IMG/VR virus record: IMGVR_UViG_3300021363_000006
Span: 1-51,891 of that record
Reading direction: 5' to 3' (one strand)
Length of the DNA: 51,891 nucleotides
Source of the DNA: a virus
In this document: piece by piece, positions 5,280 to 40,260 of the stretch
Position numbering within the stretch: the stretch's first letter is position 1
Layout: each line of letters starts with the position of its first letter
The notes under the pieces: generated by a model
What the model was told of the DNA's origin: nothing
The model's input: the letters and a program-made list of their open reading frames with translations, nothing else
The model's database searches: none
Translations under genes and position numbers: made by a program

Positions 5280-5460
5280 CAATGAGACGACGAATGATGT
5301 CACTGGTGGAAGTGTACTCCGGAGAGATGACCCTGTGTACGAAGAAGCCCTGTGTACGAAGAAGCACTGCATGGCCCAAGCTAAGTGGTGGCTGGTTGTA
5401 CGAGATGACGATAACGAACAAGATGTCGACCACGCCAGATGTGAGGAGCACAGCCGATGA
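5266..5460 (+). CDS. Small Cys/His-rich protein
   Basis: Sixty-four residues, overlapping the preceding gene by 14 bases. CTKKHC near residue 30 and ARCEEH near the end give four possible zinc ligands. Its TGA overlaps the next ATG (ATGA), which supports this frame over the other open frame in the same bases. Function unknown. Confidence 0.6.
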   Translation: MARTNNETTNDVTGGSVLRRDDPVYEEALCTKKHCMAQAKWWLVVRDDDNEQDVDHARCEEHSR

Positions 5461-9893: not shown

Positions 9894-10081
9894 TGCGAAA
9901 GGTACGCATTACCTATACGGCTAGTGCAACGGTCGAGATGGACTTGTCCTCATACCCTGGTATGACGGAGAAGGGGATCAAGGAGTACGAAGAGGGCAAC
10001 GGCGAGGCAGAAGTCTTCGAGGTACTCGCAGGACAAGACGACCTTGATGTCAAGGTAGAAGTGGAGTTCTTCGATGAGTAA
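9893..10081 (+). CDS. Hypothetical small acidic protein
   Basis: Sixty-two residues from a GTG sharing its first base with the preceding TAG. Beta-rich start (VRITYTASATVEMDL) and strongly acidic C-terminus ending VEVEFFDE. Overlaps the next ATG by 8 bases. Could be a DNA mimic or inhibitor by charge, but nothing shows this. Confidence 0.6.
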   Translation: MRKVRITYTASATVEMDLSSYPGMTEKGIKEYEEGNGEAEVFEVLAGQDDLDVKVEVEFFDE

Positions 10082-10409
10082 CACAACGTTCGAGGAAGCT
10101 AAACAGTGTCCGAAGTGTAGCAATCCTGGTGAGGATCGTATCACCAGAATCGCTAAGGGCATGAAGCCTGGTACGACTACGCACCACATCTACTGCATGT
10201 CCGTTCTTTGTCCTTGGTACGACACGTGCTGGATTGTTCAGGTGAATCCTGATGGGTCAATTCCTCCGGCGACTAACCATGTTGGCCAGCCCAAGGTGTA
10301 CGAAGGCTTTGAGGGTCACGACAAGGAAGCCACAGACCTGATCGACGAGCTGAAGCGTTCTGCCGCTAAGCAGACTGAAGACGGATATGAGATCCGTCGC
10401 AACCGGTGA
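10074..10409 (+). CDS. Zinc-ribbon protein
   Basis: A protein of 111 residues. CPKCSNPGED near residue 12 and a second Cys pair near 41-46 (YCMSVLCPWYDTCW) form a typical zinc ribbon, followed by an acidic-basic helical tail. Similar small zinc ribbons recur through this operon. Function unknown. Confidence 0.65.
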   Translation: MSNTTFEEAKQCPKCSNPGEDRITRIAKGMKPGTTTHHIYCMSVLCPWYDTCWIVQVNPDGSIPPATNHVGQPKVYEGFEGHDKEATDLIDELKRSAAKQTEDGYEIRRNR

Positions 10410-10492
10410 TCTTGAGAGTGCTCGTGGCAGCGTACGTTATAGTTGTCGCGAGCATTTTCGTTGCTGCGGTATTACTTATAGTCTCTCTGTAA
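10406..10492 (+). CDS. Tiny single-pass membrane protein
   Basis: Twenty-eight residues from a GTG overlapping the previous stop. Almost entirely hydrophobic (LRVLVAAYVIVVASIFVAAV). Its stop TAA lies at the left edge of the repeated TTAGAC element. Confidence 0.5.
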   Translation: MILRVLVAAYVIVVASIFVAAVLLIVSL

Positions 10493-10609
10493 GTCTAACT
10501 CTCATGATCCTTAGGGCTATGTTCTCTATGAGGGCGTATTGGCATTCGGTTAGACATAGCTTAGACTCGGTCTCATAGAAAGTCTAAGGCTATCGAGAGC
10601 TTAGAGCTC
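10480..10609 (+). repeat. TTAGAC/GTCTAA structured element, copy R1
   Basis: About 130 bases homologous to R2 (30893-31018, reverse) and R3 (40129-40260, reverse). Order: GTCTCTCTG, GTCTAAC, a variable loop, TTCGGTTAGACATAG, CTTAGACTCGGTCT, AAGTCTAAGG, AGAGCTTAGAG. GTCTAAC can pair with GTTAGAC and CTTAGAC with GTCTAAG, giving two consecutive hairpins. The 5-prime edge coincides with the stop codon of the upstream gene, as in R3. The 14-bp AGTAGACCACAGGG motif follows 19 bases later. No gene is seen inside. Confidence 0.7.
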
Positions 10610-10627
10610 GAGCGTGTGATGGCTGAC

Positions 10628-10641
10628 AGTAGACCACAGGG
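10628..10641 (+). promoter_or_regulatory. Repeated 14-bp motif AGTAGACCACAGGG, copy 3
   Basis: Exact copy in sense orientation, 8 bases before the ATG at 10650. Its end plus AGG makes the ribosome site. Downstream partner of element R1. Confidence 0.6.
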
Positions 10642-10649
10642 AGGAAGCG

Positions 10650-10865
10650 ATGCATAGGCAAGACATGGCAGTGATGCGTTCAGACATCAGAGCTGGACTG
10701 AGCCAGGAAGGTAAGGCCACTGTGGGGTTCGGCGGGACTCCGGCAGAGTGGCGAAACATCCGTGCCACCATAGCTCTCTGGGCCAAGAAGAACGGAAAGC
10801 AGGTGCACATCGAGTTCGTTAAGCACTCGGGCTGGCAAGAGCTGGATGTTCGGGTAGCGTCGTGA
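10650..10865 (+). CDS. Hypothetical small basic protein
   Basis: Seventy-one residues with ribosome site GGGAGGAA. A Gly-rich turn (VGFGGTPAEW) is followed by a basic helix (IRATIALWAKKNGKQ) and a strand. Controlled by the R1 element and 14-bp motif upstream. No family recognised. Confidence 0.65.
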   Translation: MHRQDMAVMRSDIRAGLSQEGKATVGFGGTPAEWRNIRATIALWAKKNGKQVHIEFVKHSGWQELDVRVAS

Positions 10866-11113
10866 ACTTCGACGAACTCCAGAAACAGATTGAGGCAGAC
10901 GAACTAGCTGACGGTATCGAAGCAGGTCAGCTGTTACTGATGTCTGTAGCGGACTACGCGAAGGCTCGAGACATGAAGCCTCAACTCATCCACTACTACA
11001 TCCGCAAGGGCAAGATCGTACCAGTCTTGTGTGAGTGTGGACGCAAGTGCGTAGAGGTTAAGGAGGCAGACGATTTCCTTGCAGGAAGGAGCAAGAGTGA
11101 AGGAGAGAATTAA
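10862..11113 (+). CDS. Small helix-turn-helix (MerR/excisionase-like) DNA-binding protein
   Basis: Eighty-three residues from a GTG coupled to the previous gene. SVADYAKARDMKPQLIHYYIRKG (about 29-51) has the pattern of a winged-helix of the MerR/excisionase kind. A CxCxxxC cluster (CECGRKC) follows and may add zinc. A candidate phage regulator, possibly for one of the repeated DNA motifs; that link is a guess from proximity. Confidence 0.65.
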   Translation: MNFDELQKQIEADELADGIEAGQLLLMSVADYAKARDMKPQLIHYYIRKGKIVPVLCECGRKCVEVKEADDFLAGRSKSEGEN

Positions 11114-21498: not shown

Positions 21499-23739
21499 AT
21501 GGGCAATCTGTTAGGCGCTGCAGAGGATGAGCGCCGAGCATCATTCTTCCGTTACGCCTTCAACGGAAACCATGGTTACGTCGCCTTGGCTTTCCTAACA
21601 CCTGACAAGACAAACTTCTGGGAAGCGTACTTCAAGTACCCAGAAGAGGAAGCGGAGATGCTCCTCAAGATTCGGGACAACCTCGCTTCTCATAACGTCT
21701 ACTTTTGTCCTCAGCTATTTGGAGGTAAGAGGCGGAAGAAGGAAGACGTAACACTAACACCCTCGGCGTGGGCTGACCTCGATACTTGTCATCCAGACAA
21801 CCTAAGAGTTCGACCCAGCTTGGTGATCGAGTCGTCCGCAGGCAGATACCAAGCCCTGTGGACTCTTGACGAAGTCGAGGCCGACGATGCCGAGTTCCTC
21901 AGCAAGAGGATTGCGTACGCTCACTACGAGGAAGGTGCTGATCGATCTGGTTGGGATCTGACACAGCTACTCCGAGTTCCGTTTACGTACAACTTCAAGT
22001 ACAACGCCTTGGCTGGCGAACTGCAGATAGTTCGTATCCATGACCTGTACCGAAGCTCGTATCGTCTTCAGGACTTCGAAGAGGGTTACCCTACCCTTGC
22101 TTCTGAAGTCGTGGACAAGATCCCGATGCCAGAAGCCGGAGAGCTGCCTGAAACGGCAGAGGAACTGCTACAGACCAAGCGCAGGATGATGAACCCGCGC
22201 CTGTGGACTTTGTACAACACGGAGCCCGATGAGGACTGGAGCAAGCCTCTTTGGCAGCTGAACATGATGTGCTTCGAGGCAGGCTTCACTAGGGAAGAGT
22301 CCTTCGTCATCGCTCGTGAGGCGAAGTGTAACAAGTACGCTCGGGATGAGCGTCCTCTCAGGTTGCTATGGAAGGAAGTAGTTAGAGCCCATGCGCGCGG
22401 TGAGGCTACGGCCACACTCTTGGAAGTCCCCGGCGGTCCTGAACGGACTACGCTTCTCACTCCAGAGGAGCAGGAGTCCGTTCATCAGCAGCCCGACACC
22501 TTCGTTGAACGTTACATCACCTGGGCCCGAGCGCTGGGAGATGCTGCACACCAGTATCACCAAGCCGGAGCATTTATCATCTTGTCAACGTTGCTCAGCG
22601 GTAACGTTCGACTCCCTACTTCCTTCGGAACGTTCATCCCTAACCTCTGGTTCATGATCCTTGCGGACACAACACTGACACGTAAGACCACCGCAATGGA
22701 CATGGCAGTCGATCTAATTGCCGAGTTAGATAGTGATGCCATCCTTGCTACTGACGGAAGCATCGAGGGTCTGATGACCTCGTTGTCTCTTAGGCCAGGA
22801 CGCCCGAGTATCTTCCTTCGGGACGAGTTCTCGGGCCTCCTGGAGTCAATGACGAAGAAGGACTACTACGCAGGTATGGCGGAGGTGTTCACAAAATTAT
22901 ACGACGGGAAGATGCAGAAGAGGGTCTTGCGGAAAGAGACTTTGGAAGTCCGCGATCCGCGTTTGATCTTGTTTGCGGGTGGGATCAAGAACAAGGTCAC
23001 TGGGTTGTTGACTTTCGAACAAGTTTCAAGTGGCTTCATGCCCCGTTTCATTTTTATTACCGCGGAATCGGACATCACCAAGCTGAAGCCGTTGGGACCA
23101 AAGACGGAGCAGACGAACTACGGCAAAGAGATCATCTTGAACGAGATGCGCGACCTGATGGATCACTACCAGCAGTTGACGACCATCGAGGTAGCGAAGC
23201 TCGGAACGAAGATCGAAGTGCCTCTTATACACGAAGTAGAGATGACGGACGAGGCGTGGTTCAGATACAACCAGCTCGAGTCAGAGATGCTACAGGTTGG
23301 GATTGCGAGTGAGTTCAGGGCAGATGTCCTTACCCCTACCTACGACAGGCTCAGCAAGAGTATCCTCAAAGCTGCCGTTCTTCTCGCTGCCAGCAGGACG
23401 AGGGACGAACAGATTGTTGTCGAGCTGTCTGACATCCTTAGGGCGATCCATTATGGTGAGCAGTGGAAGATTCATGCCGACGATGTTATGTCGAATATCG
23501 GTAAGACGACTTACGAGAGACAGATCATCAATATTCACAAGTTGATCTGGCGCAAGCCTGGTCTAAGTCGTTCGCAGGTAATGCAGCACTACCACCTGAA
23601 TGCCAAGGCGTGTACGGAAATCTTCGAGACAATGGAACAACGAGGACTCCTATCACGTTCACGCACAGGCAAGACTGAACAGTTGTATCCAACTCAGATT
23701 CACCCACCGGAGGAATGGAATGGCAAGCAGCCAGCTTAA
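21499..23739 (+). CDS. DNA primase-helicase (RepB-like primase plus DUF3987-like helicase)
   Basis: A protein of 746 residues. Residues about 25-215 look like an archaeo-eukaryotic-type primase domain of the RepB/DUF type (SAWADLDTCHPDNL, RPSLVIESSAGRYQALWTL). From about 345 a helicase-like domain follows. Its P-loop is divergent (LADTTLTRKTTAMD, near 394-407), with FLRDEFSGLLESM near 437 as Walker B and LTFEQVSSGFMPRFIFI as the next motif, as in DUF3987 proteins. A winged-helix C-terminus ends the chain. It is the likely replicative primase-helicase. Confidence 0.82.
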   Translation: MGNLLGAAEDERRASFFRYAFNGNHGYVALAFLTPDKTNFWEAYFKYPEEEAEMLLKIRDNLASHNVYFCPQLFGGKRRKKEDVTLTPSAWADLDTCHPDNLRVRPSLVIESSAGRYQALWTLDEVEADDAEFLSKRIAYAHYEEGADRSGWDLTQLLRVPFTYNFKYNALAGELQIVRIHDLYRSSYRLQDFEEGYPTLASEVVDKIPMPEAGELPETAEELLQTKRRMMNPRLWTLYNTEPDEDWSKPLWQLNMMCFEAGFTREESFVIAREAKCNKYARDERPLRLLWKEVVRAHARGEATATLLEVPGGPERTTLLTPEEQESVHQQPDTFVERYITWARALGDAAHQYHQAGAFIILSTLLSGNVRLPTSFGTFIPNLWFMILADTTLTRKTTAMDMAVDLIAELDSDAILATDGSIEGLMTSLSLRPGRPSIFLRDEFSGLLESMTKKDYYAGMAEVFTKLYDGKMQKRVLRKETLEVRDPRLILFAGGIKNKVTGLLTFEQVSSGFMPRFIFITAESDITKLKPLGPKTEQTNYGKEIILNEMRDLMDHYQQLTTIEVAKLGTKIEVPLIHEVEMTDEAWFRYNQLESEMLQVGIASEFRADVLTPTYDRLSKSILKAAVLLAASRTRDEQIVVELSDILRAIHYGEQWKIHADDVMSNIGKTTYERQIINIHKLIWRKPGLSRSQVMQHYHLNAKACTEIFETMEQRGLLSRSRTGKTEQLYPTQIHPPEEWNGKQPA

Positions 23740-24526
23740 TGGCATCGCGATCTTCAGCGGTGGACTCGATAGCACAACAATGGTATGGGATGCAATTGTC
23801 AATAGAGGATTGCATATCGACCTAGTCAGCTTCGACTACGGACAGCGTCACAAGAAGGAGTTGGAGTATGCGGCACGTACTGCTGAACGTCTTGGTTTGC
23901 GTCATGACATTGTTGACCTATCTTCAATCACACCCTTGCTAGCGGAGTCGGGCAGCTCATTGGTGTCGAGCGAAACTGTTCCGGAAGGACACTACGCCGA
24001 AGATAACATGAAGGCGACGATCGTTCCGAACCGCAACATGATGATGATCTCGATCGCAGTCAGCATCGCCGTGGCCCGTAAGGCTCCATTTGTCCTAACA
24101 GGTGTCCATGCTGGTGATCATGCCGTGTACCCGGACTGCCGTCCTGAGTTCGTCAAGGCTGTTAGCTACGCTGCGATGGAAGCGAACTTGGGTTCGGAGT
24201 TCAAAGCTGTCGTTGCCCCCTACATGGAACAGTCTAAGGAAGATATCGCCGCGATCGCTATTGGCTTGCACCTGGACTTGTCTCGGACTTGGAGTTGCTA
24301 TAAGGGCGGCGAGCTTCACTGTGGACGCTGCGGAACCTGTGTCGAACGTCTTGAGGCTATTTACGGTGCTCAAGCCCGCCTGTCCTCAGGAGATATCCTC
24401 AAGCAGTACGATACGACCAAGTACGAGGACACCAAGTTCTGGCAGGAAGCAGTAGCTGCTCAAGGCGTTGAGGAAGAGATCGTCAACCTAGATGCCTGTG
24501 ATGGGACTGAAAAGGAGATCATCTGA
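23720..24526 (+). CDS. queC: 7-cyano-7-deazaguanine (preQ0) synthase QueC
   Basis: A protein of 268 residues. Converts carboxydeazaguanine to preQ0 with ATP and ammonia. PP-loop FSGGLDSTT at about 11-19 and the zinc site CYKGGELHCGRCGTC (about 194-208) are intact. The start is the ATG at 23720 with GGAGGA just ahead, inside the end of the primase gene. First gene of the pathway block and ATG-coupled to QueD. Confidence 0.93.
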   Translation: MASSQLNGIAIFSGGLDSTTMVWDAIVNRGLHIDLVSFDYGQRHKKELEYAARTAERLGLRHDIVDLSSITPLLAESGSSLVSSETVPEGHYAEDNMKATIVPNRNMMMISIAVSIAVARKAPFVLTGVHAGDHAVYPDCRPEFVKAVSYAAMEANLGSEFKAVVAPYMEQSKEDIAAIAIGLHLDLSRTWSCYKGGELHCGRCGTCVERLEAIYGAQARLSSGDILKQYDTTKYEDTKFWQEAVAAQGVEEEIVNLDACDGTEKEII

Positions 24527-24972
24527 TGTACACAGTGTCGAAGGAGATTGAGTTTGATGCAGGTCATCGCGTTCCCAATCACAAGAGCAAGTGTAGAAAT
24601 CCGCACGGGCATCGCTATCGTCTTCGTGTCACTATCGCAGGCGAGCTCATCACCAATGCTGGTGCAAGCGACGAGGGTATGCTTGCTGACTTCGGAGACC
24701 TAAAGACCATCATGACCGAGAAGGTCCACGACGTTCTCGATCATGGCTTCATCGTACATGAAGACGATAGAGTCATGCTAGGCTTCTTCAGCGAATACTC
24801 GGAAGACGTGTTCAAGTACATCGTTGTGCCCTTCGTTCCTACAGCTGAGAACCTTGCCAAGTGGTGCTGGGACCAGCTTAGCGATTTGGTCCTGCAGATG
24901 GGCTTCTGGCTCGAACTAGTCGAGCTATGGGAAACGCCTACTAGTCTGGCTACGTACAAGGAGGTTCGATGA
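24526..24972 (+). CDS. queD: 6-carboxytetrahydropterin synthase QueD
   Basis: A protein of 148 residues. Makes 6-carboxytetrahydropterin from dihydroneopterin triphosphate. Zinc ligands lie in FDAGHR (about 10-15) and PHGHRY (about 28-33), the catalytic Cys in SKCRNPHGH, and PTAENLA and WETP complete the family signature. Between QueC and a short gene; overlaps both. Confidence 0.93.
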   Translation: MYTVSKEIEFDAGHRVPNHKSKCRNPHGHRYRLRVTIAGELITNAGASDEGMLADFGDLKTIMTEKVHDVLDHGFIVHEDDRVMLGFFSEYSEDVFKYIVVPFVPTAENLAKWCWDQLSDLVLQMGFWLELVELWETPTSLATYKEVR

Positions 24973-25181
24973 ACTGGGCAAGGGCCAACAGGTTCTCAGA
25001 ACGTATCTTCTCGAACTTGAAAGGAGTCAAGGGTCCAACGGCCAAGGAGATGGAGTCTATCGACTACGGGCCCAAGCCTTGGAACTGGCAAGACCCATCT
25101 CGTGAGACGTCTGCGCCAGAGCAGCCTCAAGCACTTGACCTGACAGACCTTGACTTGATCAGACAGTCGTACAGGAAGTAG
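24969..25181 (+). CDS. Hypothetical small protein within the preQ0 operon
   Basis: Seventy residues, ATGA-coupled to QueD. Basic N-terminal half (MNWARANRFSERIFSNLKG), then a Pro/Trp stretch and an acidic end. No enzyme motif. Position suggests it may be part of the modification pathway, perhaps as a partner protein, but nothing in the sequence proves it. Confidence 0.6.
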   Translation: MNWARANRFSERIFSNLKGVKGPTAKEMESIDYGPKPWNWQDPSRETSAPEQPQALDLTDLDLIRQSYRK

Positions 25182-25186
25182 GGAAC

Positions 25187-25906
25187 GTGCTCAAGCTGCG
25201 CGTCAGTGAAGTCTACCTTTCAATCCAAGGTGAAGGCCCTAGAGTTGGCGAGTCTACGGTTTTCGTTCGCTTCGCAGGTTGCAACCTCCGTTGTCCTGGC
25301 TGGGCTTGTGATACTCCGCATGCTATTGATCCTGCAATCTATACGAAGGATGCGCAGCTACTTACGCCTCAGGAGATCGTTGAGCTCGTCGTCGAGGCTT
25401 CTCATCCAGGAACGAACATCTGCTACACTGGCGGAGAGCCCTTCATTCAGAATAGTGAGACTCTCTGTGAGTTGTCCGACGCCCTTACGGTTGCGGGTTA
25501 CCCAACGCAGGAGGTGTTCACTAATGGAACTCTCGAGTTCCCCGAGTGGGCATACGAGGTCCTATACTTCGTCATGGACTACAAGTTGTCTGGGTCCGGC
25601 GAGGAGGGCAACATCCATGGGACCGAGGGTGTGCAGGCAACTAGGATCAAGAACATCCAGAGGATGAATGAAGGCGACGTAGTCAAGTTCACCATCGCCA
25701 GTCGCGCTGATTACGAAGAAGCGTGCATGTCCTACCCTCATTTGCAGAAGGACAACCCCCACATCGACTTTTACTACGGAGTCGTGTGGGGGAAGCTCGA
25801 GGCTGGGGACCTAATCGCCTGGGTCCTGGAGGATGGGCTCACTGCTTGGATGTACACCCATCAACTGCATAACGTCATTTGGTCAAGGGACATGCGTGGA
25901 ATCTAA
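25187..25906 (+). CDS. queE: 7-carboxy-7-deazaguanine synthase QueE (radical SAM)
   Basis: A protein of 239 residues from a GTG. The cluster loop is CNLRCPGWACDTP, a CxxxCxxxxC spacing, slightly wider than the usual CxxxCxxC of radical SAM enzymes and close to phage QueE types I recall. The TGGEPFIQ motif (about 84-91) is intact. Converts carboxytetrahydropterin to carboxydeazaguanine. Its end overlaps the next GTG. Confidence 0.9.
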   Translation: MLKLRVSEVYLSIQGEGPRVGESTVFVRFAGCNLRCPGWACDTPHAIDPAIYTKDAQLLTPQEIVELVVEASHPGTNICYTGGEPFIQNSETLCELSDALTVAGYPTQEVFTNGTLEFPEWAYEVLYFVMDYKLSGSGEEGNIHGTEGVQATRIKNIQRMNEGDVVKFTIASRADYEEACMSYPHLQKDNPHIDFYYGVVWGKLEAGDLIAWVLEDGLTAWMYTHQLHNVIWSRDMRGI

Positions 25907-26549
25907 ACCGCTTGCCAACCCTCACAGAAGCAAGATCGACCACCCTTACCACTACTCGTTGTTCATGCCTGAGCAGAAAGAGGTACCCAGATTGTTCGAT
26001 CTCGACGCATCTTCCGATGCCGCTCAAAGGTTCCTCCAGTCTCTAGGCGCCGCGTGGGATGGATCTGAAGAAGACCACAGGGATAGAACGCCACGTCGTA
26101 TGGCAACCATGTTCAGGCAGATGACAGAGCGTGAAGAGTTCAACTTCACCACTTTTCCTGCTAAGGCTCAAGACATGGTAACGTTAGGCCCAATCCCCTT
26201 CTACACCATGTGCGCCCATCACACGGCCCCGTTCTTTGGGAATGTATGGATTGGGTATGTGCCGAACGCTAGCATCGCAGGGCTGTCCAAGTTCGCTCGC
26301 GCAGTCAAGTACTGTGCGAAGGGATTCCACGTTCAGGAGGAGCTGACGGCTCAGATCGCTGATTTCATCGACAAGAAGTTAGACCCTATGGGTGTGGCTG
26401 TCGTAGTGAAGGCGGAGCATCTATGTATGGCGATGCGAGGGGTCCAACAGCCGGGCGTCGTCACCACGACCTCGTCCATGCTAGGCGCGTTCGGAGATCA
26501 CAAACGGACGGCAAAAGCGGAGTTCATGTCACTCATCCAGGGAGGCTAA
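25896..26549 (+). CDS. folE: GTP cyclohydrolase I
   Basis: About 217 residues if started at the GTG at 25896 that overlaps QueE (an ATG at 25967 is the alternative). Makes dihydroneopterin triphosphate from GTP, the first step to preQ0. Zinc site CAHH in YTMCAHHTAPFFG, KFARAVKYCAKGFHVQEELT, and the catalytic HLCMAMRGV are all present. Supplies substrate for QueD. Confidence 0.92.
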   Translation: MESKPLANPHRSKIDHPYHYSLFMPEQKEVPRLFDLDASSDAAQRFLQSLGAAWDGSEEDHRDRTPRRMATMFRQMTEREEFNFTTFPAKAQDMVTLGPIPFYTMCAHHTAPFFGNVWIGYVPNASIAGLSKFARAVKYCAKGFHVQEELTAQIADFIDKKLDPMGVAVVVKAEHLCMAMRGVQQPGVVTTTSSMLGAFGDHKRTAKAEFMSLIQGG

Positions 26550-27162: not shown

Positions 27163-27176
27163 CCCTGTGGTCTACT
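27163..27176 (-). promoter_or_regulatory. Repeated 14-bp motif, copy 4 (reverse)
   Basis: CCCTGTGGTCTACT, the exact complement of AGTAGACCACAGGG, directly after the stop of the preceding gene and 16 bases before the DpdA start. Confidence 0.6.
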
Positions 27177-27191
27177 GAAAGGTGTAACCCC

Positions 27192-27965
27192 GTGCAGATG
27201 GTATACATCCCACCGTTGCAGATGTTAGATCAGGCAGGCAACTACAGGATGCAGTTGATGCTTCCGCAGTGGGTAGGGAACCTCACGTACGACAAGTTCT
27301 TCAAGTACCGTGCAGGTATGGGTGATCACATCATCCTGGACAATGGTGCCAACGAAGGCTACAAGATCAGCCTGGACCGCTTGTGTACACTCGCCAACAG
27401 GTATGGTGTGTCGGAGCTGGTGCTACCTGACACTATGGGAGACTTCGAGGAGACGCTTGGACAGGCAAAGCTATTCCTTGGCCACTACGCTTCCTCGTGT
27501 CCTAAGTGGACGAAGTTCGGGTTCGTACTTCATGGTGCCAACTATGAGGACGCTGCAAGGAACTTCGCTAAGCTTCGAGGCATCAAGGAGCTGTATGACA
27601 TGATCTCAGTCATCTACATTCCCCGAATGCTTGTCACGAAGAAGGAGCCAGGTGCTCGGATTAGTTTGGCTTACTACATCCATGGACACAACAACAGGTT
27701 CGTCTCGCGTAACCAGGAGAAGCAGATACATCTACTTGGCGCCTCTCCTATCTGTATGACAGAAGTTCGGGATGCGCGTAAGAGCGTGTCAGCCATTCGC
27801 AGCATGGACACGTCTGCTCCGTATGTGTACGCACTAAAGGGAAAGCATGTAGATGATGGCGTAGTCCACAGGGAGCATGACACCTACTTCTACGCCCTCA
27901 TTGACCCTGGTACTCGTAAGCTAGCCCTTCAGAGTTGTGAACTGATGGACAGCTGGGTCAAGTGA
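27192..27965 (+). CDS. dpdA: DpdA-like DNA-guanine transglycosylase
   Basis: A protein of 257 residues (GTG at 27192, or ATG at 27198). DHIILDNGANEG (about 38-49), VLPDTMGDF near 78, FVLHGAN near 115 and HLLGASP near 180 follow the TIM-barrel pattern of the tRNA-guanine transglycosylase-related DpdA group. This enzyme exchanges guanine for preQ0 in DNA. With QueC, QueD, QueE and FolE just upstream, the phage can plausibly make and insert preQ0. It is shorter than bacterial DpdA, as in other phage forms. Confidence 0.85.
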   Translation: MQMVYIPPLQMLDQAGNYRMQLMLPQWVGNLTYDKFFKYRAGMGDHIILDNGANEGYKISLDRLCTLANRYGVSELVLPDTMGDFEETLGQAKLFLGHYASSCPKWTKFGFVLHGANYEDAARNFAKLRGIKELYDMISVIYIPRMLVTKKEPGARISLAYYIHGHNNRFVSRNQEKQIHLLGASPICMTEVRDARKSVSAIRSMDTSAPYVYALKGKHVDDGVVHREHDTYFYALIDPGTRKLALQSCELMDSWVK

Positions 27966-30355
27966 ACAAGAACCCATTAGCGGACTGTGAGAACTGCCCC
28001 CTTCAAGGAAGAGAGAACGTTTATGTCCCGAGTAGTGGTCCCCCTCGTGCCCAAGTGGCCTTCGTTGGGGAGGCACCAGGCCTCCAAGAGGCCCGCACAG
28101 GTCGTCCGTTCATGGGGCCTTCTGGCGATCTCCTCAATACTGTTATGCGTCATCATGGGATTAAGCGACAGGAGGTCTTGCTGACCAATGCGTGCCTTTG
28201 TCGCCCACCTGATAACGCGACTCCTCCTGCAGTGGCTATCAAAGCATGCCGTCCGCGACTCATTCATGAGCTTGGATCCGCCCAGGTGGAAACGGCAGTT
28301 GCGCTCGGTAACACTGCAGCTCAAGCACTCACGGGTCGCACTGGAGTTACAAAGCTCCGAGTTGGATCGGGTATCCCATCAAGTTTCAATCCGGATCTCC
28401 GTGTTGTCAGCACCCTCCATCCTGCGTACTGTTTGCGAAATGCTGATGGATTCCCTTCGCTCGTCGTCGACGTCGGAAAGGTAGTACACAAAGGTGTCAG
28501 CTTCACTCCTCCCAACTACACAGTCATTCATACTCCGCTTGAAGCCATCCGACTCGCCCGGAAGCTTCTCAGAGGACAGGGACCTCTTGTTGTCGACATT
28601 GAAACTGATGTTGAGAAGGATGTCGGCTTCGGACACCCTAATCAGCACAGTATGTTGTGCATTGGAATCGGTAAGCGAGCTGAAGGATACTTCGTTCTTG
28701 CTGACACTGCACTTAACAAGCGGTCGTATCGTGCGCTGGGAATTCTCCTGCGACGAAGGGGTGTTGTCGAGCAGAATGGAAAGTTTGACAACGCAGGACT
28801 CTACAGGCACGTTGGGCCAGTTCCTCTCAAGTTCGATACGCTCATCGCCAGCTACGTATTCGATGAACGACCGGGCATCCATGGGCTAGAGCATCAGGCA
28901 CAGGAGTATCTCGGAGCTCCTTCTTGGAAGGACGAGATCAAGCAGTATGTTGGTTCCGGTGAGGGTTACGGCAACATCCCGAGAAATATTCTATACAAGT
29001 ACAATGCGTACGATGTATATTGCACGGATCTCTTGCAAGAGATGTGGGAGTTGCGGCTTAGCCACGACCCAGACGCTCGGAGAGTCCACGATTTTCTGGT
29101 GGAAGCATCCAACGAGCTCATGTTTGTGGAGCTCAATGGTATCGCAGTGGACGTTGGATACCTAGATGTCCTAACAGATATGTATACGAAGTCGCTAGGT
29201 GAGATCGAAGCAGGCATTGACAAGATTGTCGAGAAGGGAACCAAAGGTCAGACAGCGTTCGTCAACCCACGTTCGCCTCAACAGGTGAAGAAGGTTATCC
29301 ACCAGATGGGTATAAAGGTGGACTCGACTGACGTAGACCAGCTCAACAAGATCATTGACTACATCAAGCAGCTAGCGCACAAGAAGAGTCTGACTAGAGA
29401 CACTCCCGTAGAGCCCGAACAGTTCCCGCTATACAACTTCGCCGTAGAGCTCCTGCGGCACCGCAGAGAAACGAAGATGTATGGAACCTATGTCAAGGGT
29501 ATTCGTAAGCGGCTATACCGGGGTAGGGTGTACCCAACCTTTCTTCTTCATGGAACGACCACGGGAAGACTTAGTTGTCGTAACCCTAACTTGCAGAACG
29601 TTCCACGAGAGTCAGCAATACGAGATTTGTTCGTCCCAGCTAGAGAGGGCAATGTCTTTGTTCAGACTGACTACAGTCAGGCTGAGTTGCGGGTGCTATC
29701 TTTCCTTGCGGGTGATAAGTACTTCAGAGACATTTTCAATGCAGGGGATCACGATCTCTTCGATGATCTTACTCCGGTGCTATACCCTCACCTCCAATCC
29801 AAAGATGTTGTCGGAGCTGCGAGATGGAAAGAAGTACGTATCCGCATTAAGGCATTCGTCTATGGTCTTGGGTACGGTCGAGGTCATGAGTCTATTGCGG
29901 AAGAGCTTAAGATCCCTACGTCTGAGGCGTACAAACTCAAGCAGAACTTCTTCCGTGTCATCCCAGAGATACAGGCATTCCAATCACAGGTCCAAAGGGA
30001 CATCCTCGCTGGTAAGGATTTGGTTACTCCTTTCGGTAGGCATCGCCGCTTCATGCTTATCACTGATCGTAATCGCCATGAGGTCCTAAAGGAAGGCCTA
30101 GCCTTCAAGCCTCAATCAACCTCTAGCGACCTAACACTACAAGCTATGGTCAACGTCAGAAAGGATCTAAAGGGTTATGGATGGGTTCGAAACATCGTCC
30201 ACGACTCTATCCTCGCCGAGTGTCGAGCTGAAGATGCCGAGGAGGTTGCAGCTCTTATGGATCGGCGCATGCTAGAGTCGGCCCGAAGCGTTGTCGGAGA
30301 CACTGTCAAGTTCGCAACGGAGTCAAAGATTGGGACAACGTGGGGGCAAGTATAG
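27962..30355 (+). CDS. Uracil-DNA glycosylase (family 4) fused to DNA polymerase A
   Basis: A protein of 797 residues. Residues 1-175: family 4 UDG with four Cys for the iron-sulphur cluster (CENC, NACLC, KACRP), GEAPGLQEARTGRPFMG and HPAYCLR. From about 205: 3-5 exonuclease motifs VDIETD, NGKFDNAG and YNAYDVY. Polymerase motifs: A, DYSQAELRVL (about 561); B, RIRIKAFVYGLGYG (about 625); and C, IVHDSILAEC (about 744, S in the place of the usual E). A GTG overlaps the end of dpdA. Replicative polymerase with built-in uracil surveillance is the likely role. Confidence 0.9.
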   Translation: MNKNPLADCENCPLQGRENVYVPSSGPPRAQVAFVGEAPGLQEARTGRPFMGPSGDLLNTVMRHHGIKRQEVLLTNACLCRPPDNATPPAVAIKACRPRLIHELGSAQVETAVALGNTAAQALTGRTGVTKLRVGSGIPSSFNPDLRVVSTLHPAYCLRNADGFPSLVVDVGKVVHKGVSFTPPNYTVIHTPLEAIRLARKLLRGQGPLVVDIETDVEKDVGFGHPNQHSMLCIGIGKRAEGYFVLADTALNKRSYRALGILLRRRGVVEQNGKFDNAGLYRHVGPVPLKFDTLIASYVFDERPGIHGLEHQAQEYLGAPSWKDEIKQYVGSGEGYGNIPRNILYKYNAYDVYCTDLLQEMWELRLSHDPDARRVHDFLVEASNELMFVELNGIAVDVGYLDVLTDMYTKSLGEIEAGIDKIVEKGTKGQTAFVNPRSPQQVKKVIHQMGIKVDSTDVDQLNKIIDYIKQLAHKKSLTRDTPVEPEQFPLYNFAVELLRHRRETKMYGTYVKGIRKRLYRGRVYPTFLLHGTTTGRLSCRNPNLQNVPRESAIRDLFVPAREGNVFVQTDYSQAELRVLSFLAGDKYFRDIFNAGDHDLFDDLTPVLYPHLQSKDVVGAARWKEVRIRIKAFVYGLGYGRGHESIAEELKIPTSEAYKLKQNFFRVIPEIQAFQSQVQRDILAGKDLVTPFGRHRRFMLITDRNRHEVLKEGLAFKPQSTSSDLTLQAMVNVRKDLKGYGWVRNIVHDSILAECRAEDAEEVAALMDRRMLESARSVVGDTVKFATESKIGTTWGQV

Positions 30356-30634: not shown

Positions 30635-30920
30635 TCCAGGAGAGACTCGGACATCTCCAAATGGTTACCACTACACAAAGACCTCAAAGGGCTGGCGGAT
30701 GACCCATCACATCATGATGGAGCAGCACATCGGTCGCCCTATCAAATTGGAGGAGCGTGTTGTCTTCAAGGACAAGGACCGCACCAACCTTGAGGTCGAC
30801 AACCTCGAACTCCAGGTGAAGGGCAGGAGTACTGCTGCACGTGAGCTCGCTAGACTCGAGGCACGTCGGGATGAGCTCGAAGCTAGGATTACTGAGCTTA
30901 GAGAGAAGCTTGAGACTTAG
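30615..30920 (+). CDS. HNH-like protein, active site degenerate
   Basis: About 101 residues from a GTG. HHIMMEQHIGRPI followed by VDNLELQ matches the start and end of phage HNH nucleases. The usual HHx(N/D)GxKxDN middle reads VVFKDKDRTN, so the second His is missing. A C-terminal coiled coil (ARLEARRDELEARITEL) follows. Either inactive as a nuclease or a DNA-binding derivative. Confidence 0.6.
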   Translation: MRGQLSDPGETRTSPNGYHYTKTSKGWRMTHHIMMEQHIGRPIKLEERVVFKDKDRTNLEVDNLELQVKGRSTAARELARLEARRDELEARITELREKLET

Positions 30921-31018
30921 AGTTAGACCAAGTCTAAGCTATGTCTAACCGAATGAATCGTAGACCCAAGGGAGTAATGAGGGGCAAGATCCTTCACAGG
31001 TTAGACTTACAGAGAGAC
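30893..31018 (-). repeat. TTAGAC/GTCTAA structured element, copy R2
   Basis: On the minus strand this reads TCTCTCTGTAAGTCTAAC ... GGATCTTGC ... TTCGGTTAGACATAG CTTAGAC ... AGTCT, the same order as R1 and R3. The 29-base core around ATTCGGTTAGACATAG differs from R1 at one base in the compared stretch, and AAGGATCTTGC is shared with R3. It lies across the end of the HNH-like gene and the start of the next membrane-protein gene, antisense to them. Confidence 0.65.
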
Positions 31019-31141
31019 CTCGAAACATTGCAGACAGGAGACCACAGGGTGGGCTTAGCTATTGCTTTTGTGGCAGGAGCCGTTGCGGCTTGTGCAGGAT
31101 TACTAATCTGGTTGGCCTACAAGTTTAAGGATATCTGGTGA
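30941..31141 (+). CDS. Small single-pass membrane protein
   Basis: Sixty-six residues. Basic first half (NRMNRRPKGVMRGKIL), then one helix (VGLAIAFVAGAVAACAGLLIWLAY) and a KFKDIW end. Its first third overlaps the R2 element and contains the ACCACAGGG word, so sequence there may be constrained by DNA or RNA function. Overlaps the next GTG. Confidence 0.5.
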   Translation: MSNRMNRRPKGVMRGKILHRLDLQRDLETLQTGDHRVGLAIAFVAGAVAACAGLLIWLAYKFKDIW

Positions 31142-31632
31142 GTGAGTTCGTCTATCGAGTCCTGGCCCTTGATCCAGGAGGCACAACAGGTTGGGCAACG
31201 TACACAACTGAAGCAGAAGGTGTGAAGCCTTACGACCGCTTGGACTTTACCTCTGGACATCTCGGCCCAGAGAAGCACCATCAGGCACTAGAGGTTCTCC
31301 TAGGCAATCAGCGAACAACCTACTTCACTGTGGTCTGTGAGCGCTTTCAGGATCGTGTAGGCGAACACTCAATCAACCTTATGGCTCGGGAGTACATTGG
31401 CGTTGTCGAGAGATGGTGCCAGGAGAACGAGACACAGCTTGTTATGCAGACTCCTGCATATGCCAAGGGCTTCATCCTCGACTACAACTTGAAGGAAGCA
31501 GGTCTCTGGGACGGACCAAAATGGAAGCACGCGAACGATGCAAAGCGACATCTGTTGTCTTACATGATCAATGGTACGCCCCATAGACATGACTGGCTAC
31601 GCAAGATTGGGAAGGGTCCTCATGGCAAGTGA
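31138..31632 (+). CDS. RuvC-like Holliday junction resolvase
   Basis: A protein of 164 residues from a GTG. LALDPGGTTGWATY (first catalytic Asp near residue 11), VVCERFQ (Glu near 70) and a C-terminal NDAKRHLL (Asp near 141) follow the RuvC/RNase H-fold order. Likely resolves branched DNA before packaging. Last enzyme of the early operon. Confidence 0.8.
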   Translation: MSEFVYRVLALDPGGTTGWATYTTEAEGVKPYDRLDFTSGHLGPEKHHQALEVLLGNQRTTYFTVVCERFQDRVGEHSINLMAREYIGVVERWCQENETQLVMQTPAYAKGFILDYNLKEAGLWDGPKWKHANDAKRHLLSYMINGTPHRHDWLRKIGKGPHGK

Positions 31633-36524: not shown

Positions 36525-37315
36525 GCCGACTTAGCTGCAACAGTACCATTACCAATGTTGCTAGTGACCTTCCAAGTATTCAAGCCAGGAAGTGCTACAG
36601 GCCAAGCACCGCCTGTGAGGGTCAAAGCTACATTGACGATGACACCATTCACCTTGAAGACTAACTTCTCCACGTCGATTGTCAACACCTGACCTGAGGT
36701 AATTGCCTTCGAGAAGCTAAAGGACAAGCCCGTAGTAATGTTAGCGACTGTGATGTTAGCTGTCGTTGAGGACGTTGCGGTGATGGATATAACCTGCCCA
36801 GTTGCTGCGTTGCCCGCGTTGGTGAATGTGTAGTTCGATCCTGCTGTCCAAGCGAACGATGTAATGTCAATGTAGGATCGAGGATCAGTACAGCCAAACT
36901 GCAACTGGAAGGGCATCCGACCTGTACGACGTCCAGCCTCTACGTCCGCCTTGTATGCGATAGGCTTTGCAAGGAAGTAACGTTGTGCTTTCGAAGGATG
37001 CTTCCAGTACAAAGGATAGTCGACACCATCAGGAGTAATGGTCGCCTTAAGGAGTTCGTTGTTCGTTTCTACATCTGAAGGGCCGCAGTACAAGGTACCT
37101 TCGGGGATGACCATTCGATGGTGGAAGTAATTACCTGTAACGAACCCACCATGCTGACCATCGAGATCGAGAACGTCATAGTCCAAATCAGGAAAGTCAG
37201 ATAGTCCACCAACCTTATTCACGTCCCAAAAGGGCATGACAGATGCATTTTGGTTAAGCAGGATACCTGTATCCTTGTACTGGTACTCATAGTCCAAAAG
37301 AGTAGGAGCAGCCAT
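36515..37315 (-). CDS. Distal tail protein (Dit)
   Basis: A protein of 266 residues directly after the tape measure gene. It has the N-terminal ring-like domain (LDYEYQYKDTGILLNQ, then RRTGRMPFQLQFGCTDPRSY) and a beta-sandwich C-terminal part of siphophage Dit proteins. Connects tail tube to the tip. Confidence 0.78.
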   Translation of the reverse strand: MAAPTLLDYEYQYKDTGILLNQNASVMPFWDVNKVGGLSDFPDLDYDVLDLDGQHGGFVTGNYFHHRMVIPEGTLYCGPSDVETNNELLKATITPDGVDYPLYWKHPSKAQRYFLAKPIAYKADVEAGRRTGRMPFQLQFGCTDPRSYIDITSFAWTAGSNYTFTNAGNAATGQVISITATSSTTANITVANITTGLSFSFSKAITSGQVLTIDVEKLVFKVNGVIVNVALTLTGGAWPVALPGLNTWKVTSNIGNGTVAAKSAWL

Positions 37316-39480: not shown

Positions 39481-40081
39481 TACGTCCTCCTCCTCCTGCT
39501 GTTTCGTTCCTGTTCGAGTCGCTGCTTCTCGTGCATAGCATTCAGCCCTGCAGTTAAGAGCTCGATGTGGTATGGGTCCTGATCAAGCAACCCTCCAGCT
39601 CTTGGTAGAACGTGCAGCTCCTTGCACAGGAACGTAATCCGTATGGCGAGATCAACTTCGTCATCTGGTTCGCGATCTAGGATGACACTGGCGTTGACTC
39701 GCCCTTGGAGTTTCCCTCGTCATCGTCCCCGTCGAAGTTGTTCATGTCCTCGATGAGCTTCTCGATTTCCTGTCCAACGCGCGGGTCCAGGGAAGCAACA
39801 TCCACAGGGTTGGAGAGGTTGAGCAGCTGACCTTCGATGCGTTCCAGGTTGTGTTCGATAACACAATAGCGGAACTCGAACAAGTTCACATTCTTGTTCG
39901 CCATCGCGATCTCGCCTGCAACGTCGTTCTTACCCTTGCCGTGGTTGGAGAAGGTCAACTTGAGCATGGCACGTCGTTCCAGGATTTGACCATAGTCCAT
40001 CTTTCGGAGCACAACAAATGCTCCGTCAAGAGTCTTGAGGTCAAACCTCTCAGTGCTATTGGATCTGATTGCTACGGGCAT
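39480..40081 (-). CDS. Tail assembly chaperone G-T by -1 frameshift
   Basis: The frame of the gene at 39677-40081 shifts by -1 at GGGAAAC (minus strand, 39716-39710), a canonical slippery heptamer. It continues through VNASVILDREPDDEV to a stop at 39480, giving about 200 residues. This is the classic siphophage G-T pair that helps tape measure folding and tail assembly. The second frame has no start of its own and ends with RRRR. Confidence 0.85.
39677..40081 (-). CDS. Tail assembly chaperone G
   Basis: A protein of 134 residues starting MPVAIRSNSTERFDLKTLDG, after AAGGGAGGAA as ribosome site. Short form of the chaperone pair, with an acidic end (NFDGDDDEGNSK). It is preceded by R3 and the 14-bp motif. 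Confidence 0.85.
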   Translation of the reverse strand: MPVAIRSNSTERFDLKTLDGAFVVLRKMDYGQILERRAMLKLTFSNHGKGKNDVAGEIAMANKNVNLFEFRYCVIEHNLERIEGQLLNLSNPVDVASLDPRVGQEIEKLIEDMNNFDGDDDEGNSKGESTPVSS

Positions 40082-40109: not shown

Positions 40110-40123
40110 CCCTGTGGTCTACT
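40110..40123 (-). promoter_or_regulatory. Repeated 14-bp motif, copy 5 (minus strand)
   Basis: AGTAGACCACAGGG read on the minus strand, 29 bases before the chaperone ATG. It lies just downstream of element R3, the same order as R1 plus motif at 10480-10641. Confidence 0.65.
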
Positions 40124-40128
40124 AGATT

Positions 40129-40260
40129 TCTCTAAGCTCTCTAACCCTTAGACTTCTCATTAGACCGAGTCTAACCTAAGTCTAATCGAAGTTCCCTGAG
40201 GCCCTAATACTACTCGACCCCGCAAGATCCTTCTTAGTTAGACTCTCAGAGAGACTTAGA
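40129..40260 (-). repeat. TTAGAC/GTCTAA structured element, copy R3
   Basis: On the minus strand: TAAGTCTCTCTGAGAGTCTAAC ... AAGGATCTTGC ... TTCGATTAGACTTAGG TTAGACTCGGTCTAA ... AAGTCTAAGG ... AGAGCTTAGAG. Same order as R1 and R2, with changes in the loops. AGTCTAA/TTAGACT and TTAGAC-TCG-GTCTAA pairings are possible. Begins at the stop codon of the major tail protein (the TAA of GTCTAA). It fills most of the 174-base gap between the tail protein and the chaperone. Confidence 0.7.

Follow-up and report, generated by a model that had tools for sequence, protein, structure and literature searches.

Helically phased site arrays at three syntenic loci of an uncultivated phage group, possible modules of replication initiation

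The three repeated elements of about 130 bp in the window (the whole stretch of 51,891 nucleotides analysed here, which comes from an IMG/VR virus record) are arrays of short sites that follow a fixed, helically phased plan, recur at syntenic loci in related phages and mostly lie beside a polar word, ACCACAGGG. Judging from sequence comparison, they are very probably protein-binding arrays on duplex DNA. Regarding their role, we favour replication-initiation modules, made of iterons and a priming word, and give this reading a probability of about 45%.

Arrays in the window and in related phages

The elements were re-located at 10480-10609 (R1, plus strand), 30893-31018 (R2, minus) and 40129-40260 (R3, minus), with the blocks described in the initial annotation. 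Their 31-nt core, TTCGGTTAGACATAGCTTAGACTCGGTCTAA, had exactly three matches in the window with up to three mismatches and none in 100 shuffles, and an architecture scan of the whole window gave exactly three arrays with scores of 60-65, the next best scoring 25; three elements are therefore observed where the expected number is 0. Array R1 (10480..10588, plus, order 2+4) has sites at 10481 (weak GTCT), 10493 (GTCTAA), 10550, 10561 (TTAGAC), 10571 (GTCTCA) and 10582 (GTCTAA), and is followed, as had been noted, by the word AGTAGACCACAGGG (10628..10641, plus) and by a gene start at 10650. Array R2 (30909..31018, minus), whose order is 4+2 on the plus strand, consists of a weak AGAC at about 30912, TTAGAC at 30923, GTCTAA at 30932 and 30943, the centre spacer, TTAGAC at 31001 and a weak AGAC at about 31015. 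Downstream of it, in all the relatives too, is the gene of a RuvC-like Holliday junction resolvase (31138..31632, plus). Array R3 (40146..40260, minus), read along the tail genes, has its two-site group first (2+4), and its word, AGTAGACCACAGGG at 40110..40123 (minus), is 28 bp before the ORF of the tail assembly chaperone (39677..40081, minus), the gene in front of which the element had been placed.

Two details had to be corrected. The 14-bp motif had been reported beside two copies, but all three adjoin it: that of R2, AGGAGACCACAGGG, with one mismatch to the 14-mer, is at 31036..31049 on the plus strand, opposite to the element, and therefore R2 is inverted relative to its own word and gene. 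Furthermore, R1 and R3 had been said to begin at the stop codon of the upstream gene. This is right for R3, since the stop codon that it overlaps belongs to the major tail gene. R1, however, lies 70 bp past the end of gene 10074-10409, and the stop codon that it overlaps (TAA, 10490-10492) is that of a short ORF for a membrane peptide. Short ORFs for peptides with a single membrane span directly adjoin arrays R1 and R2 (10423-10492 and ~31077-31141 in the window, 7660-7760 in the relative G001).

A DNA search of INPHARED with the 1.6-kb tail region of the window found no match and no close phage, and neither the exact core (DNA) nor the tail gene (protein) matched any of the viral contigs searched, these being too diverged. 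The genome contigs searched for a host gave only distant uracil-glycosylase/polymerase matches in many phyla, which were uninformative. Nevertheless, the DNA polymerase search recovered G001 (72%) and G002 (57%), and a joint polymerase profile of these relatives gave about 25 contigs with polymerases 42-72% identical, whose genomes we read whole or in part. In the polymerase of the window (27962-30355), a uracil-DNA-glycosylase domain is fused to the N-terminus of DNA polymerase A.

About 30 further arrays were found across about 20 related phage contigs. Nearly all of these are at the same three intergenic, syntenic loci: between the homologues of 10074-10409 and 10862-11113 (R1), between an HNH gene and the RuvC-like gene (R2), and between the major tail and tail chaperone genes (R3). 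One extra array, in G019, is outside the three loci, and G016 has neither arrays nor the small protein R1b discussed below. In G001 and G002 the R3 array is absent and the 8-mer ACCACAGG directly follows the stop codon; compared with them, the R3 array is an extra block between stop codon and word, as a MITE-like mobile insert would be. This suggestion of the initial annotation is nevertheless largely refuted and most improbable, since the copies occupy the identical three loci in many diverged phages instead of unrelated sites, keep their internal spacing despite low sequence identity, and are accompanied by no other insertion sites in the window.

A spacing-free search for at least three exact GTCTAA/TTAGAC sites within 160 bp gave 23 clusters, against 0.3 in shuffles, and the architecture scan over the relatives and the window gave around 33 arrays. 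When weaker GTCT sites were counted as well as exact ones, most arrays showed a group of four sites one helical turn apart (steps of about 12, 10 and 11 bp) and a group of two (11-12 bp apart), separated by a centre step; either group can come first. The centre step is 57-58 or 47 bp, rarely 69 bp; these lengths differ by whole helical turns, all of them staying near half-integer turns. The sequence of the centre is not conserved across the relatives. Of the 26 spacings measured at R1 and R3, 25 fall within bands learned on the R2 arrays (p=9e-12 against a null of 0.32). The orientation of the sites is free: neighbouring sites form 39 direct and 27 inverted pairs, and orientation differs between orthologous loci while the DNA-helical spacing is kept. 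This freedom fits the site consensus, GTYWRAC, which is pseudo-palindromic and has GTCTAAC as its best form.

The fixed half-turn centre and the helical spacing are the mark of a protein assembly on double-stranded DNA, and the protein-binding array that had been among the first suggestions is strongly supported by the spacing kept, the free orientation and the three syntenic loci. The arrays have the clustered sites in helical phase of an iteron-type origin, the binding of an initiator being putative. On the other hand, as orientation varies freely, hairpins are not conserved. This bears on the proposal of a structured RNA, an attenuator or riboregulator in the leaders of the downstream genes, which could explain that hairpins are possible in all three window copies and that the mean folding z-score over 31 arrays is about -1.7. 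However, the z-scores (range -6 to +1.4) are equal on both strands, the array at 52699 of G003, with direct sites only, folds worse than shuffles (z = +1.4), some arrays are antisense to genes, and the Rfam covariance-model search of the elements gave no match. The base changes of R3, thought to keep pairing possible, are weak evidence: both partners were changed in 5 of 36 consensus pairs, and covariation over the three window copies contributed an unfavourable term overall (+1.23). Thus the RNA reading is largely refuted and we consider it very unlikely.

The word beside the arrays and across the genome

Most arrays (27 of 33) point at a ACCACAGGG word, an outward CCACAG being found at 75 bp or less from them, against 5.5% of random windows. 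It is on the two-site side in 25 of these 27, R1 and R3 of the window being the exceptions, and the other six arrays have no exact CCACAG alongside. One array without it, at the R1 locus of G009 (36700-36900), is followed by a promoter-like TTGATA...TATAATT sequence. At the R2 locus the word points at the RuvC-like gene in 18 of 18 cases. At R1 and R3 it points toward the gene in five and away in six, so the array-word unit is flipped in about half of them, and these flipped units in several relatives argue against a simple promoter.

The 14-mer is also present away from the elements, and no 8-mer of the genome is more over-represented than its core, ACCACAGG occurring 23 times in the window against 1.8 expected. 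There are around 20 copies per genome, on both strands, within and between genes; examples of ACCACAGG(G) in the window are 1729+, 6067+, 16789-, 21345+, 26069+, 27163-, 35010+ and 46665+. In the window the copies are evenly spaced on each strand (about 4.5 kb; CV 0.31 and 0.25, p<=0.001), which is less clear in most relatives, and five of the eight alignable copies are conserved between the window and G001, against around 7-10% of control 8-mers. The word is no gene-start signal genome-wide: most copies are intragenic, and they are 13 sense and 7 antisense to the genes in the window and 4 and 9 in G003.

No hairpin was found at the ACCACAGGG words, where stem length equalled that of the permuted control and covariation did not exceed that of permuted pairs. 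About 20 bp ahead of many words away from arrays is a box, GG(T/G)CCC(C) (e.g. L088-L090 in G014 and L076-L078 in G004); a search for a covarying hairpin between box and word found none. At 27163-27176 (minus) of the window, the space between two plus-strand genes is taken up by a perfect, reversed 14-mer, which G001 and G002 lack. The GC skew follows gene direction and leaves the arrays unmarked, therefore it was uninformative, and a literature search on the two words found nothing relevant. A promoter/RBS reading of array plus word is disfavoured by the reversed units and by the intragenic copies on both strands. We also think it rather unlikely that the word is a host Chi site, because related words are found in phages whose hosts are Arthrobacter, Curtobacterium, Stenotrophomonas or Gordonia, and because they track the phage primase.

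A candidate binder and a RepB'-type primase

The best candidate for the protein that binds the arrays is R1b (10862..11113, plus), an 83-aa protein with a predicted winged-HTH fold of the BldC/Xis/MerR kind. Ten array-bearing contigs extend to the R1 locus, and in 9 of them its gene adjoins the array. R1b may be the cognate initiator of an iteron-type origin, its binding being putative, but it was not detectable in G019, which has arrays. The Pfam search of R1b gave no match. Its model is nearest to BldC, GlnR, Pukovnik Xis, RacA and RdfS; the best match to BldC had a probability of 1.0 but E=0.016, for a predicted fold. Filaments are formed both by BldC, at one DNA turn per protomer, and by RdfS (PMC5859096, PMC11963761).

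The same protein gives rise to the strongest rival of the replication reading, in which the arrays would be transcription operators or enhancers where R1b, an autoregulated BldC-like protein, binds cooperatively and controls the early (R1), RuvC (R2) and tail (R3) operons. The array next to the gene of its own candidate regulator in nine genomes, the position of the arrays ahead of operon starts in the window, the constant direction of the word toward the RuvC gene and the TTGATA/TATAAT-like promoter beside the R1 array of G009 would all agree with operators. However, neither a sigma-70 promoter nor a terminator was found at R1-R3 beyond chance, six array-word units at R1 and R3 point away from the genes, and the word does not mark gene starts genome-wide. 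We regard operators as a serious possibility, somewhat less probable than initiation modules. An Xis/RdfS-like candidate binder would also suit centromere-like, packaging or recombination sites, dispersed as in phage-plasmids and with the 47/58-bp centre as the working core, and so would several dispersed, orientation-independent copies with strict helical geometry. But the scanned proteins include no ParA/ParB, integrase or invertase, a working core is hard to reconcile with the unconserved centre sequence, and packaging does not need three loci; this explanation is therefore unlikely.

The candidate enzyme acting at the ACCACAGGG words is a primase (21499..23739, plus). By its sequence and its predicted model, it is an enzyme of the RSF1010 RepB' type: the Pfam RepB_primase match scores 35 bits (cut-off 24), the WxDLD and SxxRYQ motifs are present, and the model matches RSF1010 RepB' 3H20 (E=1e-10) and 3H25, the ssiA-bound form (E=5e-7). 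A glutamine in motif II has been described for RepB'-like enzymes (PMC5862659), and GTG is the proposed initiation motif of RepB' (PMC4434180). The template strand of the word, CCCTGTGGT, includes GTG. The window also seems to encode a pathway to 7-deazaguanine (preQ0), which suggests modified DNA: QueC, QueD (PTPS), a radical-SAM protein and GTP cyclohydrolase I are at 23600-26549, and 27192-27965 (weak DUF6610) may be a further component.

The word is enriched in most contigs that bear the primase and mostly not in those without it. Words with a (T/G)GTG core are also at the top in distant phages that share the primase and differ in host, namely Amigo (GGGTGTGC), Yappy (CGCTGTGC/CCCTGTGC), Jojan60 (CCCTGTGC) and Buttrmlkdreams (TGGTGTGG/CGGTGTGG), and CN1A has a related GTG-core word, CCGTGCGG. 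TGTG-type words were among the top three in around 13 of 19 primase stretches, that of CN1A counted and the stretches not being independent by descent, against 1-2 of 20 controls. The primase is present without this word in L032, L039, L040 and Satis. The link between word and primase may reflect shared ancestry of the whole replication module.

Comparable phased arrays were sought in Amigo, Yappy, Jojan60, CN1A, Buttrmlkdreams and Satis without a clear result, except in CN1A (L138, a Clavibacter phage). There, a 12-bp tandem array of its own top word (CCGCACGG/CCGTGCGG) is at 5334-5440, upstream of an HTH gene and a helicase; Satis has likewise an HTH protein gene at or near the helicase gene. 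In Jojan60 (L137, a Stenotrophomonas phage), GGTAGAAT occurs 11 times between 4246 and 27426, against 0.5 expected, on one strand and mostly in gene gaps of the late region; it resembles a late promoter, and an annotated sigma-factor gene is nearby.

A possible role in replication and the known systems compared

In the replication reading, an oligomeric phage protein, likely R1b, would assemble on the pseudo-palindromic sites of the array and bend or open the DNA next to the polar word, which the RepB'-type primase would then take as a priming signal on the GTG-containing template strand. The other copies of the word would be further priming sites, a putative role with which copies on both strands, evenly spaced, conserved and tracking the primase, are consistent. 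The complete design is a tentative proposal, somewhat less probable than the origin role by itself: up to three origin-like 4+2 modules with half-turn geometry aimed at the priming word, together with about 20 evenly spread strand-specific words read by the primase, each lineage having its own version of the word. To our knowledge, no such replication design has been described for tailed phages.

Several observations speak against the replication reading. The word keeps its direction toward the RuvC-like gene, as a promoter or leader signal would, G001 and G002 keep the R3 word without the array, and six arrays are without the exact CCACAG. The GC skew gives no signal at the arrays, R1b was not detected in G019, and the mixed orientation of the sites differs from the head-to-tail direct repeats of BldC. 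Finally, the ssi sites of RSF1010 contain a hairpin, whereas no covarying hairpin was found at the words.

The stoperators of cluster A mycobacteriophages are asymmetric words of about 13-14 bp dispersed over the genome. The words described here are likewise asymmetric and dispersed, but many are intragenic instead of intergenic and their orientation shows no bias following transcription. PMC3203893 contains a remark on stoperators.

In the SAS/ESAS elements of cluster K mycobacteriophages and their counterparts in Microbacterium cluster EF phages (PMC3203893, PMC7302621), a short asymmetric word close to gene starts likewise has a repeat element immediately before it, and each phage has several copies. 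However, the word here is also intragenic and on both strands, not regularly 3-7 bp before start codons in gene direction, and the unit often runs opposite to the genes. Furthermore, the word is preceded there by two imperfect 17-bp repeats, inverted and separated by a short spacer, whereas here there is a phased 4+2 array of mixed orientation with a 47/58-bp centre.

The oriV of RSF1010 (IncQ), with RepC iterons and the ssiA/ssiB sites primed by RepB' (PMC4434180, PMC4538821), is similar in having initiator-type repeats beside a polar priming-type signal, a homologous primase fold (3H20/3H25) and GTG on the template strand. An AEP primase of the RepB' type is present in the phage, and no homologues of RepC and RepA were identified. 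RSF1010 has one hairpin-bearing ssi per strand, whereas here there are at most three arrays and around 20 words per genome, with no hairpin signal. Regarding the winged-HTH filaments of BldC, lambda Xis and RdfS on tandem sites (PMC5859096, PMC11963761), the likeness is in the predicted fold of R1b, with an N-terminal helix as in RdfS, and in the one DNA turn per site; but BldC binds direct repeats head-to-tail, and here both orientations occur, in two groups half a turn out of phase.

Thus, the uncultivated phages of this group share a precise, conserved cis-acting DNA architecture, and its candidate binder can be tested. For phages with RepB'-type primases, the top over-represented word suggests a way of reading priming or control sites from sequence alone. 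If the replication reading is true, it would give a testable account of the unexplained repeated words and intergenic, SAS/ESAS-like elements in several actinophage groups.
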